Source of the DNA: Pseudocercospora fijiensis CIRAD86
Lineage: Eukaryota > Ascomycota > Dothideomycetes > Mycosphaerellales > Mycosphaerellaceae
Assembly: GCF_000340215.1 (NCBI RefSeq)
Contig: NW_006921536.1
Span: forward strand, 570,886 to 634,885
Length of the DNA: 64,000 bases
Direction: 5' to 3'
Made by a program: the position numbers and the translations under genes. This document shows positions 3,880-63,567 of the stretch, piece by piece. The notes under the pieces are model-generated. The model searched no databases. It was given only the letters and a program-made list of their open reading frames with translations, and was not told the DNA's origin. Numbering within the stretch: position 1 is the first letter of the stretch; each line of letters opens with the position of its first letter.

Positions 3880-6800
3880 AGGAATTCCTCGATTACTTCG
3901 CGGGCGAAGATAATATAGCGTAGAGGTTCCTAGGTCGTATCCTCGTCCGAGTACCCCTTCTATTGTATCTCTCCCTACGGCCCGGGAGGATTGAGATTTC
4001 CGAAATTTGTATTACTAAAGCTCTATCCGATAATCGCCCGTACTGTACCTAAGGCAGATTCCGGCTCGTCTTCGGTCTAATCGGTAGCCTCGGTAGCTTC
4101 TAGTATCGGCGGGATGTCTTCGGGGTCCGCGATTTCTCCGGCGGTTCTTAGATTAATAACGTATTTAACCGGGTAAATGTTGAGATTTTCTAGGAGATCT
4201 AGTTCGTATACGTGTATACCGACTTTCTTTACAATCCGGAAGGGTCCTAGATTTTTCTAGTCGAGCTTTTTCGAAGGTCGGTTAGTTCTAATATATCGTA
4301 AGTCGAGGTAGACGTAATCTCCGACCTAGTAATCTAGCGCGGCGCGTCTACGCTAATTAGTATAGTGCTCGTATACTTCTTAGGTATACCTTATCTCGTC
4401 CTAGAGCTCTTAGTAGGTCTAGGCTATTTAAAGAGCGAAGGTATCGGCGTCTCTTTCCGGATCGTTTACCGGGGGCTCTAGTTCGATCTCTATTAGTTCT
4501 ATACCGGTTCGGGGGTAAAATCTAGTAGAGGCGTAGAACGGCGTAGTCTAAGTTATAGCCGACTCCTAATTATTGATAGTAAATTTAATAGAAGGCGTCA
4601 ATCTTAGCTAGTCGTTTTAGTAGTAATTGTAGAAGCACCTAATAATTTGCTCGATCTACGCGTTAGCCCGTTCGGTTTGCCCGTCGGTCTACGGGTAGTA
4701 AGCCGTTAAAAGGCGCGCTTAAATTTTCAATCGTTCGTAGAGGCGCTTCTAGAAACGGGTAACGAAATTCGGGCCGCGATTAGATACAATTGATTTAGGT
4801 AGGCCTATATCTTTCTATACGTCCCGGTAGAAGACCTAAGCCGTATTCTTTGCGGTTAGGCTGCGGGCATTTAATACCTTCTTACGTTTCGTAAGGCGGC
4901 AAACTACGACTAGCATGTTTTAAAACTAGAGGCCGTTAAAATCGGATCCTTTCGGTAGGCCTATAATGAAATCTATTAAAATGTATTGCTATAGTCGTAG
5001 AGGGACTTTAAGAGGTTTTAGTAGCCCTTACGGCTTACGCGTATCTACTTTCGCCCTACGGCATACTACGCAGTTCTTAACGAATCGGTCGATATCTCGG
5101 TATAGATTAGGCTAGTAGTACTACTTCCGGAGCTAAGACAATATCTTAGCTCGATCGGGATATACTATTCCGAGAGGATTGTAAGCGGAACGTATAATCT
5201 AGTCGCGTAAATCTTCGAAGTCCGGGACGTAGAGGGTATTTCTAAATATTGTACGGGGTACTCGCGGTAGAGTTCTACGGAGCTCGTACTCCGAGAGAGA
5301 AACGTTCTCGTATAACCGCTCCTCGTTCTATAAAGCTTAAATTAGACCTTTAGTAAAAGCGTCTTCGGCGTATACTATCGTAAGCTGCTATTCGAGCTAG
5401 GTAGGTTCGAGGAGGTCCTATGCTTCCTCTTCGCTTTCCTAGTCGCTATCTAAGCTTTCTAAACTCGTATCTTCGTCGTCCGAGCTATCGTCGTCTCTAA
5501 GAAAGGCGGGAGCGGCTATTAGTATAAAGGATACTACGAGAGGCTCTAGGCCGGTAAAGTCGTCTCCGAGGAGCTCGTATAGTTCCTAGCTAAGGTTATA
5601 CTCCTTAAGGATAGACTGTTCTTTACGCTACGGACCTCGATCTAAAGGCGAGTCTCCGTTACGCCTCGTAAGTACGTCGGCCTATAAGTTTGCTTTACCG
5701 GGCGTATACTAAATAACGAAGTTAAACCGGGAAAGAAACTTACTCTAGCGTACCTGCCTACGGCTAAGGATTTTGCTCTTAAGAAAATAGATAAGGTTCT
5801 TATAATCCGAGCTAACCTAGATCGGTAACTTAGAACCTTCGAGTTCCGGACGCTATTCTTCGAAAGCCTTAACGATTGCGAGGAGCTCCTTATCGTAGAT
5901 ATCGTAATTGTATTCCGTAGAGGACATTTTCTTAGAGAGGTAGGCTACGGGCAGCTACGCATCTTCTAGGGTCGTTCGTTAAAGGAGAACGGCGCTAGTT
6001 ATACCGTCGGAAGCATCGGTTTCTAGGCGCGTTTCTTTATCGAAGTCGAAGTACTATAGGATCGGTACGGTCGTAAAACTTTACCGTAACTAGTCGAAGG
6101 CTTCTTAATAGGCCGGTAACTATTTAAATTTGACGTCTTTCCGCGTAAGTGCCGTAAGTAAACGGGCGATTCCGCTAAAATTCCGTATAAATCTCCGGTA
6201 GAAGTTAGTAAAACCGAGGAAGCCCTAGACTTCTTTTACGTTTCGTAGCACTCCCTAGTTTAGAACGGCTTCGATCTTACCGGGATCTATTCGAATACCT
6301 TCTAAAGAGACAATAAGGCCGAGGAATTTCACCTCTTGCTTATAGAATTCGTACTTGTCGATATCGATATATAGTCCGGCTTCTACGAGTTTCTTAAGTA
6401 CCTTTTCGATATATTCGTAGTATTCCGCTTTCGTTTTGCTATAAATTAGGATATTGTCTATATACGCCGAGACGAAGGCGTCTAGGAATTCTTTAAGCGT
6501 ATCGTTAATATATAATTAGAACGTACTAGGTCCGTTACAGAGCCCGAACGGCAAGACTAGGTATTTAAAAAGGCCGTAACGGGTTCGGAAGGCTATTAAC
6601 TATTCGTCTCCCTCGGCAATACGGATCGCGTTAAAGGCGGCGATTACGTCGAGCTTAGTAAACTAGCGAGCCTTCGAAAGGCGTTCGAGCGTTTCGTTTA
6701 CGAGAGGGATTAGGTAGCGGTTCTTTTTCGTTAACGCGTTAAGGCCCCGGTAGTCTATATAGAAACGGAGACCTCCGCCGGGTTTCCGGATAAATATAAC

Positions 6801-39477: not shown

Positions 39478-40149
39478 GTTGGTGGAGTGTGATCGTGAAA
39501 TGTCGCAGGTGGAGTTGCTTCGACGGGCTCATATAAATGCGTCTGGCAGATAACGGGCATTGGGGAAGCTCAAAGTCAATTCGGATCTTGCAAGTCATGG
39601 TCAAGGGTGTGATTTGCTGAAACGGCAGTGACGGCAGTGAGTGAACAACAGCCGGCCGCGTGCGGATGGTATAGAAAGCGGTATTAGTAAGACTCCGGCC
39701 TGACGGAAGAGATGAGAGTTCAGTGGCTTCGGCAAGGTGCCCTACGATCAGATGCACTCGCCTTGTGATGAGCAGGTAGGCTGGAAGTATCTTTAGGACA
39801 GCGCCAACGTTTAGGACAGCGAGCGCGGAATGTAGGACAGCGCCAACGAAACTGTGCTACGAAAACGGTTCGCTGAGCCTGTCAGTGTCAGTTGGAGGGC
39901 GTCCACTGTACATGTACTCAAGTCAAGACTGCAAATTGAGAACACTTCGTCACACTCATGCCGTGAGAGAAGTCCGACCGTCCTCGGCTGCCAGATTGAG
40001 TTCTCGCTTGTCGGCAAATCCTTTCGCCGACCACTGTCTTGGCACGCTGCAAATTGTCAAGTGCGATTCGTCTCCGACGTCGAATTCGAACTCCAGCAGT
40101 TGGCGACGAGCAACACTCCACGACGCTGCATACTAACACCACAGCAAAA
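39478..40149. promoter_or_regulatory. Divergent promoter region, methyltransferase / RPL4
   Basis: This region is 672 bp. Three copies of TAGGACAGCG lie at 39794, 39812 and 39833, the first and third extended to TAGGACAGCGCCAACG. They may be regulatory elements of the ribosomal protein gene or chance. The RPL4 leader runs to the ATG at 40150. Confidence 0.4.
39794..39848. repeat. Three copies of TAGGACAGCG in a promoter region
   Basis: Copies at 39794-39809 and 39833-39848 are identical over 16 bp. The middle copy (39812-39821) shares the first 10 bp. Confidence 0.8.
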
Positions 40150-41414
40150 ATGTCGTCTCGCCCAACCGTCACGATCATCGGTGCCGATGGTGCTCCATCC
40201 AAGGACACCCACCCGCTCCCAAATGTCTTCAAGGCGCCAATCCGCCCAGACATTGTCCAGTACGAATTACACCTCCGCGAGCATGAAGGAATTGAGGGCA
40301 AGGACTAATGGAACAACAGGCAGGTGCACACCGGCATGGCCAAGAACAAGCGCCAGCCATACGCCGTGAGCGAGAAGGCCGGTCACCAGACCTCTGCTGA
40401 GTCTTGGGGAACTGGTACGTACAGAGATGGAGAAAAGAGATGAAACATGGCATTGGAACATGGAGAATCTTACACCAACATACATACTAACAGCGCTTCC
40501 CAGGTCGCGCTGTTGCCCGTATCCCCCGCGTCTCTGGTGGTGGTACTCACCGCGCTGGTCAAGCTGCCTTTGGTAACATGTGCCGTTCTGGTCGCATGTT
40601 CGCACCAACCAAGGTCTGGCGCAAGTGGCACCAGAAGATCAACCTTGGCCAGAAGCGATTCGCAACTGCTTCCGCCATCGCCGCATCCTCCAGCGCTGCC
40701 CTCCTCCTCGCCCGTGGCCACAAGATCAACGAGGTTCCAGAGGTTCCACTCGTCATCTCCTCGACCGCTTTCTCCAACGCCGCCGTGAAGAAGACCTCCG
40801 CTGCTCTCGCTCTCCTCAAGGCTGCTGGTGCCGGTCCAGATCTTGAGAAGGTCAAGGCCTCCCGCAAGCTCCGCGCAGGAAAGGGCAAGCTGAGGAACCG
40901 CCGCCACACTCAGCGCCGTGGGCCTCTCGTTATCTACGAGCCAGAGAAGGATGGCCGTGAGCTTGTCACCGCTTTCCGCAACATCCCAGGTGTTGAGACC
41001 TGCCCAGTCTACGCTCTGAACCTCCTCCAGCTCGCACCAGGTGGTCACCTCGGCCGTTTCGTCATCTGGACCTCCTCCGCTTTCGCCGCCCTCGACACCG
41101 TCTACGGCAGCACGACCGAGCCATCCGGCCTCAAGCGCGACTTCCTTCTCCCATCCAACGTGGTCGCTCAGCCAGATATTGCCAAGCTCATCAACAGCAG
41201 CGAAGTCCAGAGCGTGCTCCGCCCAGTCAAGGGCTCTGCCATCACCAAGCGCACCGTTGTGCAGAAGAAGAACCCACTCCACAACAAGCAAGTCTTGCTC
41301 CGCCTCAACCCATACGCCAAGGCATATGCATCGCAGGGTCTTGGTCACGTCAAATCGACCGACAAGCCGATTGCCAAGGACAAGGCGTACGAGGCTACTC
41401 TCCACGAGAACTAA
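40150..41414 (+). CDS. RPL4: 60S ribosomal protein L4 (uL4)
   Basis: Exons 40150-40259, 40320-40414 and 40504-41414 give 371 residues. uL4 lines the peptide exit tunnel of the large subunit. The first exon encodes [14 protein letters not shown] to APIRPDIVQ. The second begins [21 protein letters not shown], and the third has [52 protein letters not shown] and the conserved NNKQ-type ending [18 protein letters not shown]. Introns are 60 bp (GTACGA...ACAG with a GACTAAT branch site) and 89 bp (GTACGT...CCAG with ACTAAC). Codon use is strongly biased towards C-ending codons, as expected for a highly expressed gene. Confidence 0.97.
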
Positions 41415-62457: not shown

Positions 62458-63056
62458 GTAGTCCATGTTGAGGGATATCGATCGCAGGATTGTTTTGTAG
62501 GAAGGTCTTTGGCTGAGAGGTGTGGTGTTGGGACGACTGTGTAGCGTTACTGTAATGGCTGTTGCATGTAGGAGATAGTGGCATACAGAAATACCGCAAT
62601 GGGTTTCCAGTGCAATTTGGTCATTTCTACACCAAGTTCAATGGACTATGAGGTGGACACAAAATTTTCAAGATCCTATCATGTTGACTCAACAGCGCTG
62701 GACCAACAACTTCTCACTCACAACACCCACGAATACTATTTTAGTTCACACTACAGATTCATACACATCCTTTCCCTACACACCCCTTGGCAAGAAGCAG
62801 CCTCCACCCCCATCATCTGCAGCCTCTAAAATTCCTTGGCGGCTCCCCACTGTGCAAAATTTCCAAAATCATTCACTCACCACGACACAAAGATAACAAT
62901 TCTCGTTCGTGTCAAGAGTCTTCGATCGAATTTTTCACACGTCTTTGTCGTACACGCCCAGCTCTGACTTTCTGGTTGTTTTTGCAGCGGTTATATACAA
63001 AATGAGATTCACCATCGGCATCCAATCAGAGTTAGAACTTGGACTATCAACAGTAC
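62458..63056. other. Intergenic region between SEC8 and the tRNA gene
   Basis: About 600 bp. Only short frames are present. No gene or strong motif is seen. Confidence 0.35.
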
Positions 63057-63063
63057 GCCCTCT

Positions 63064-63074
63064 TAGCTCAGGGG
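63064..63074 (+). promoter_or_regulatory. tRNA internal promoter A box
   Basis: TAGCTCAGGGG fits TRGYNNARNNG exactly. Confidence 0.85.
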
Positions 63075-63129
63075 TAGAGCGCGTCACTAGTACCTCTTGC
63101 ATACACTGCAATCATATGACGAGGCCATT

Positions 63130-63140
63130 GGTTCGATTCC
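63130..63140 (+). promoter_or_regulatory. tRNA internal promoter B box
   Basis: GGTTCGATTCC fits GGTTCGANNCC exactly and lies wholly upstream of the 49-bp insert, so RNA polymerase III recruitment should not be affected. Confidence 0.85.
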
Positions 63141-63215
63141 AGTATGTCTATTCCATGACGAGGCGTTTGCAGTTACTAACACATGTACAGGTAGAGGGCA
63201 CGGTTCAACTTTGAC

Positions 63216-63222
63216 TTTTTTT
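63216..63222 (+). terminator. RNA polymerase III terminator of the tRNA gene
   Basis: A run of seven T lies 16 nt after the discriminator base. No run of four or more T occurs inside the gene or its inserts, so the primary transcript should reach this point. Confidence 0.8.
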
Positions 63223-63567
63223 GTTCTGGTAACTCCGAAGAGATAATGTTTTTGTAGAGTGAGAAACGTAAGAAATTTTTGCAAAATGACCGATGGTCAA
63301 AAGCTGAAGCAGTCAACGGTCTTGCTGGATTATTTGCGTACAAAGCTTGACACAACCCTCGCCCTGTGCATTCGGCTATTATTACATCTGAAGAATACAC
63401 CCTGTACAGGAAAGTGGTTCATTCATTGCTCGATGTCGTCCTGAAAAGCCTCGTCAATTCCTACGGCGCTGATCCACGAGACGAATAGCAGATGTGCTGC
63501 AATTCAACCTTGAGCGTGTCTTCCAGAGATTCGACGTGCTTTTGAGATACAGAGGGTGTTTCTCGGA

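Follow-up and report, generated by a model that had tools for sequence, protein, structure and literature searches.

Inserts with spliceosomal intron signals in nuclear tRNA genes of Pseudocercospora fijiensis

Nuclear tRNA genes carry at most one intron, which is located at positions 37/38 and is cut out by a protein endonuclease. The 'highly-disrupted' tRNA genes of a red alga are reportedly the subject of a separate study. According to excerpts of the sources cited here, a limit of one intron applies to the tRNA genes of eukaryotes whereas archaeal genes have up to three (PMC8450103), permuted tRNA genes occur in a red alga (PMC4033280), and the U6 snRNA of fission yeast is a Pol III transcript that is spliced by the spliceosome (PMC10484740). 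Introner-like elements are linked to intron gain in Dothideomycetes, in an excerpted study in which DNA of the fungus examined here, Pseudocercospora fijiensis, served as a negative control in PCR (PMC4457414). Searches of titles and abstract starts in the open-licence literature returned nothing on nuclear tRNA genes that harbour spliceosomal introns. For Pol III RNA genes, introns of this type are already known from U6; a tRNA intron class such as we describe is new to the literature searched.

The inserts reported here share features with each of these systems. Like the U6 introns of fission yeast and other fungi, they have the form of U2-type introns inside a Pol III small RNA gene; unlike U6, which as a spliceosomal RNA comes into contact with the spliceosome in any case, the hosts are ten kinds of tRNA, and some of the interrupted genes also carry a canonical tRNA intron. 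Like canonical introns, they interrupt nuclear tRNA genes and would have to be removed before the tRNA can function, but canonical introns are confined to 37/38 whereas the inserts occupy 11 other positions and show a GT...CTRAY...AG pattern. As with archaeal and red algal ectopic introns, there can be several per tRNA gene, at non-canonical positions that include the arms.

The window, a stretch of 64,000 nucleotides (C5:570886-634885 of the searched genome of 73.94 Mb in 30 contigs), contains at 63057-63200 a tRNA-Thr(AGT) gene with a 23-nt intron in the anticodon loop and a 49-nt insert in the T-stem (Table 1). The insert reads GTATGT...TTACTAACACATGTACAG. Elsewhere in the window, the encoded exocyst protein Sec8 has Pseudocercospora eumusae as its best named hit, at 95% identity, which points to a Pseudocercospora as the probable source. 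With the insert in place ARAGORN called no gene; on its removal a tRNA-Thr(agt) with a 23-nt intron was called, the acceptor stem showing 7/7 Watson-Crick pairs and the T-stem 5/5 pairs, one of them G-U. The Rfam match in this gene covers only 63063-63144, with 32.4 bits. When 5,049 excisions of 35-85 nt were tried regardless of splice signals, the best product was that of the GT...AG register 63142-63190; with random downstream DNA, some ARAGORN call followed a signal-bearing excision in 15 of 1,000 replicates, and the real score was matched in none. The preliminary description of this locus, in which a T-arm insert with U2-type signals was said to split a tRNA-Thr gene and its removal to restore the cloverleaf, is borne out by these results, as is its account of an intact A box, B box and T7 terminator, the B box being uninterrupted. 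TACTAAC, on the other hand, had been placed 18-24 nt before the end of the insert and in fact lies 10-16 nt before its last base. Judged by its sequence, the insert, with its U2-type intron signals, would very probably be excised by the spliceosome from a Pol III transcript, with the tRNA endonuclease removing the 23-nt intron. The suggestion of a tRNA that needs two splicing machineries agrees with the presence of both elements in one gene: since inserts with spliceosomal grammar sometimes stand beside a canonical intron, a single transcript would be handled by two splicing machineries that are unrelated to each other.

Table 1. Features of the Thr-AGT gene in the window (window coordinates) and insert positions in the 13 interrupted tRNA genes.
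Feature	Location	Strand	Basis
TATATA element upstream of the Thr-AGT gene	62992..62997	+	sequence; promoter role inferred
CCAATCAG, upstream element of the Thr-AGT gene	63022..63029	+	sequence; role inferred
tRNA-Thr(AGT) exon 1, positions 1-37	63057..63092	+	parse and ARAGORN
A box region (presumed)	63064..63074	+	sequence; assigned from general knowledge
Canonical 37/38 intron, 23 nt, predicted tRNA-endonuclease substrate	63093..63115	+	ARAGORN places a 23-nt intron here
Thr-AGT exon 2, positions 38-63	63116..63141	+	parse and ARAGORN
B box (presumed), GGTTCGATTCC, uninterrupted	63130..63140	+	assigned from general knowledge
49-nt insert between positions 63 and 64, predicted U2-type spliceosomal intron	63142..63190	+	ARAGORN, blind scan, random-DNA control, stem check
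5' splice site GTATGT of the insert	63142..63147	+	sequence script
Branch site TACTAAC of the insert, predicted branch A at 63179	63174..63180	+	sequence script
3' splice site CAG of the insert	63188..63190	+	sequence script
Thr-AGT exon 3, positions 64-73, discriminator A	63191..63200	+	parse and stem check
T7 run, predicted Pol III terminator	63216..63222	+	sequence
Thr-AGT, window gene	insert at 63/64		
Thr-AGT, L010	insert at 63/64		
Thr-TGT, L115	insert at 62/63		
His-GTG, L064	insert at 61/62		
Val-CAC, L127	insert at 61/62		
Gln-CTG, L126	insert at 61/62		
Arg-TCT, L129	inserts at 47/48 and 59/60		
Gly-GCC on C3, L124	insert at 52/53		
Gly-GCC on C8, L130	insert at 18/19		
Leu-CAG, L123	insert at 69/70		
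Ser-TGA, L125	insert at 9/10		
Ser-GCT, L061	insert at 10/11		
Asp-GTC, L058	insert at 4/5		

Thirteen of the 32 nuclear tRNA genes recognised in the genome, counting the window gene, L010 and L130, are interrupted, by 14 inserts at 11 positions (the numbering is our own), and none of the 14 lies at the canonical 37/38 site. The insert of the window gene had been pictured as a single landing event; the insert is there, but its host is one of 13 such genes. Eleven further interrupted genes were spotted from weak Rfam matches and pattern hits and then verified by script, the inserts having first been parsed manually in the expectation of GT-AG; the anticodons of Arg-TCT and Leu-CAG are also read by hand, those given by ARAGORN (SeC and CAA, respectively) being off. 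All 14 inserts start with GT, end with AG and measure 49-65 nt. Their 5' sites are GTATGT (five), GTGAGT (three), GTACGT (two) and GTAATC, GTAAGA, GTGCGT and GTTAGT (one each), with 11/14 fitting GTRNGT (the exceptions are GTAATC, GTAAGA and GTTAGT), and their 3' ends are CAG (eight), TAG (four) and AAG (two). A CTRAY branch motif is present in every insert (CTAAC in seven, CTAAT in three, CTGAC and CTGAT in two each), its branch A lying 10-14 nt from the insert end in 13 of them and 19 nt from it in Gly-GCC on C8; as a background, CTRAY at 10-19 nt occurs in 324 of 9,170 GT...AG stretches of 49-65 nt in the window (3.5%). A ribosomal protein L4-like gene in the window (40100-41414; RPL4 by our own reading) served as a yardstick, and its two introns, 60 and 89 nt long, have the same grammar (GTACGA...GGACTAATGGAACAACAG and GTACGT...ATACTAACAGCGCTTCCCAG). 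The inserts thus have the features of U2-type introns, that is, a GT-type 5' site, and CTRAY near the 3' end with a terminal AG. As the inserts show messenger-intron signals at their start, branch and end, the tRNA-splicing enzyme alone would probably not suffice to make functional tRNAs, and the spliceosome would be required as well.

Unspliced, two of the 13 genes were called by ARAGORN (His, score 104.1; Leu, 108.4); after excision all 13 were called, with scores of 104.5-123.9, and the cloverleaf structure was restored in every one, 90 of 91 acceptor pairs being standard and 65 of 65 T-stem pairs formed. The discriminator bases (Thr A, His A, Val A, Gln T, Arg G, Gly A, Leu A, Ser G and Asp G) are in 13/13 genes what we take to be usual for the eukaryotic isotype, and the A of Leu emerges only once the insert is excised. 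In a blind scan comprising 3,978-6,018 excisions of 35-85 nt per gene, only 4-18 of them bearing the signals (for Arg-TCT, the other insert was removed beforehand), the proposed excision came top in 12 of 14 cases. It was the sole top in nine (both Thr-AGT, Thr-TGT, His, Val, Gln, insert 2 of Arg, Gly-GCC on C3 and Asp) and tied in Leu-CAG, Ser-GCT and Gly-GCC on C8. Insert 1 of Arg-TCT, which lies in the variable loop and is unconstrained by pairing, ranked 181 of 3,708, and the insert of Ser-TGA ranked 9 of 4,094, a one-base alternative scoring higher; these two misses and the three ties count against the reading that we prefer. A random-DNA control on 6 of the 13 genes (6,000 replicates) never reached the real score but yielded some call after a signal-bearing excision in 90 replicates, so that an ARAGORN call alone is weak proof.

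The host genes have features of Pol III transcription units. The boxes are in the sequence of the window gene, a T run of 4-9, the predicted terminator, lies within 53 nt past the predicted 3' end of 13/13 interrupted genes, and the longest T run inside the inserts is at most four (13/13 measured). Within 60 nt upstream, CCAATCAG with at most one mismatch was found in 7/13 interrupted genes (34 nt only were covered for Thr-TGT) and in 8/20 other tRNA loci (the 19 uninterrupted genes and L060), compared with 0.96% of random 60-mers; a TATA-like element at -80 to -20 was found in 7/13 and 9/20, respectively, compared with 9% of random stretches. The recurrence of CCAATCAG makes it a possible Pol III promoter element of the tRNA genes of this genome. 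In Asp and Ser-GCT, in which the insert is near the 5' end of the gene, it stands 10 nt before the predicted exon 1, as in Gln-CTG; this placement, beyond the insert, supports the exon 1 assignments of both genes. The inserts at 4/5 (Asp) and at 9-19 (Ser-TGA, Ser-GCT and Gly-GCC on C8) move or split the A box, which counts against spliceosomal removal from a Pol III transcript. Judged by sequence alone, transcription by Pol II is conceivable.

Inserts of the same kind are found in a U6 gene. Three places in the genome match U6 in Rfam, two of which, L131 (C5:4775885-4776344) and L132 (C9:2204867-2205326), are uninterrupted and form identical 460-bp stretches, an identity on two contigs hinting at recent duplication. 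The third, L133 (C5:2598860-2599329; Rfam match at C5:2599010, 25.6 bits, below the cut-off), reads as a U6 gene interrupted three times. Its inserts measure 52, 51 and 57 nt and have CTAAC, CTAAC and CTGAC located 10, 11 and 11 nt before their ends, respectively; ACAGAGA has an insert on either side, and without the inserts L133 aligns gap-free to L131 across all three junctions. The genome thus has a Pol III snRNA gene interrupted likewise. As L131 and L132 exist, however, L133 need not be functional, and the two uninterrupted genes count against the spliceosomal interpretation. The view that Pol III transcripts are not normally spliced by the spliceosome, on which the preliminary description drew, has to be qualified in the light of the fission yeast precedent (PMC10484740, excerpt) and of L133. 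A Fungi_SRP search of the genome found nothing.

A similarity search of the whole genome with window positions 63040-63230 returned two places on C12 besides the gene itself, and no uninterrupted Thr-AGT gene. L010 (C12:699235-699402), the only other full Thr(AGT) gene found, has a 21-nt canonical intron and, at the same nucleotide as in the window gene, a 52-nt insert (GTAATC...TTGCTAACAAATGTACAG) whose signals are of the same kind and whose interior has diverged. The exons of the two genes show five differences in 72 columns: positions 52 and 62 change together from G-C to A-T, a compensatory pair at 52:62; the change at position 50 turns T-G into C-G; and the remaining ones are a T-loop change and one at position 68, which breaks an acceptor pair. 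A third copy, L011 (C12:707748-707855), is 5'-truncated and keeps the insert signals (GTAAGT...GTGCTAACGAATCTCCAG); an inverted repeat has taken the place of its 5' side, and the surroundings are AT-rich. Nor was an uninterrupted Thr-AGT gene found with an anticodon-arm pattern (up to 3 mismatches) among the matches listed (the first 100 of 388), in which the window gene and L010 have no mismatch, none has one and the next have two; with two D-stem plus anticodon patterns (79/79 and 2/2 matches); or among 40 Rfam tRNA matches, from a genome search that scored 63 of 3,083 candidates and whose list lacks the window's own gene. A looser Thr pattern (219 matches) is left outside this count, and the searches are not exhaustive. 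Of the 79 Thr-pattern places 18 were examined, only L115 being a tRNA, and the rest were discounted as repeats on account of their recurring letters; Rfam at its cut-off reported no tRNA in 20 loci that included L115, which it missed because L115 is interrupted. L053, called tRNA-Thr(agt) by ARAGORN and considered as an uninterrupted candidate, was rejected: we read it as a Ser gene, given its long variable arm and its anticodon, AGA. A viral-contig scan yielded two contigs, one with its own intronless Thr-AGT, which have no bearing on the fungal gene.

Some of these loci could suggest decay: L010 has the acceptor mismatch, L011 has lost its 5' part, and Gln-CTG has an uninterrupted relative (L045, also Gln-CTG). 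That the Thr-AGT gene is a pseudogene hit by an intron-like sequence, as had been considered for the window gene, and the other interrupted genes are likewise decayed copies, is nevertheless very unlikely, given the T-stem and acceptor pairs that are intact after excision, the insert at the same position in L010 and the lack of an uninterrupted Thr-AGT gene in the searches above. When ten interrupted genes were queried for counterparts, eight had no uninterrupted match; Gln was matched by a Gln-TTG gene (74%) and Gly-GCC by the second, interrupted Gly-GCC. As this query missed the known L045, absence is no proof and single-copy status is unproven. The mismatch of L010 together with its weak 5' site GTAATC, and the uninterrupted L045, also count against spliceosomal excision.

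A further alternative concerns origin and is compatible with spliceosomal removal: the inserts could be recent copies of an introner-like element multiplied across the genome, as implied by the label 'introner-like' given to the window insert. Such elements are described in related fungi (PMC4457414, excerpt) and are multicopy, whereas 13 of the 14 inserts, joined as a query, matched only their own places; there is therefore no multicopy introner at the sensitivity of that search, which was not deep, since it failed to report the related L011 insert. The inserts of Asp and Gln begin with 12 bases in common (GTGAGTACCACC), but the insert sequences differ widely, and this origin has very little chance of being the right one. 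Removal of the inserts by the tRNA splicing endonuclease, via a bulge-helix-bulge or similar as in archaeal and some red algal ectopic introns, which the preliminary description kept in view as the ends of the window insert can pair (GTATGT with ACATGTAC), is very unlikely: archaeal genes are known with several endonuclease-cut introns (PMC8450103, excerpt), but the 4-bp central helix between the insert start and the downstream exon is complete in 0/14 inserts in the one register tested (three of four pairs in 5/14, without an outer-helix score), the end pairing seen in the window gene is lost in L010 because its insert begins GTAATC, and the GT, CTRAY and AG of 14/14 inserts would be left unaccounted for.

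Under spliceosomal removal, the reading that we favour, Pol III would transcribe the precursor tRNA and the spliceosome would remove the GT-AG insert in the nucleus by lariat splicing. This step would have to come before those of RNase P and RNase Z, as the acceptor stem cannot close in the unspliced RNA; the acceptor and T arms would form only after excision, for RNase P, RNase Z and export (in this presumed order), and the tRNA endonuclease would take out the 37/38 intron. The inserts may have arisen by repeated intron gain in Pol III genes, plausibly by reverse splicing, followed by divergence. From the sequence evidence, they probably represent a third class of nuclear tRNA intron, which would make the spliceosome obligatory for many isoacceptors (13/32 genes) and translation directly dependent on splicing, and would cause standard tRNA finders to lose much of the set. 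If true, the spliceosome would serve Pol III transcripts broadly, beyond U6, and codon supply would be tied to splicing; whether non-coding genes gain introns by reverse splicing could then be tested on a natural example, and it would be clear why the tRNA annotation of such genomes should look incomplete.

As read by us, the 40 Rfam tRNA matches comprise 10 interrupted and 19 uninterrupted nuclear genes, 3 organelle-like, 6 repeat-like or degenerate and 2 unclear ones (L060 and L128), and a canonical intron is present in many of the 19. L128 (C10:1124703-1125074) is a compound tRNA-like locus in which a signal-bearing excision gives an ARAGORN Leu call (109.0); like L060, it was left out of the interrupted count. 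At L059, a signal-bearing excision lifts the ARAGORN score from 106.5 to 110.4. L056, L057, L065, L062 and L063, which are tRNA-like, 115-167 bp long and near-identical in pairs or related, are probably tRNA-derived repeats. L006/L007 (C1:2531984-2536233), on an 11.9-Mb contig, with five tRNA calls in 600 bp including one with a TCA anticodon, is probably inserted mitochondrial DNA.
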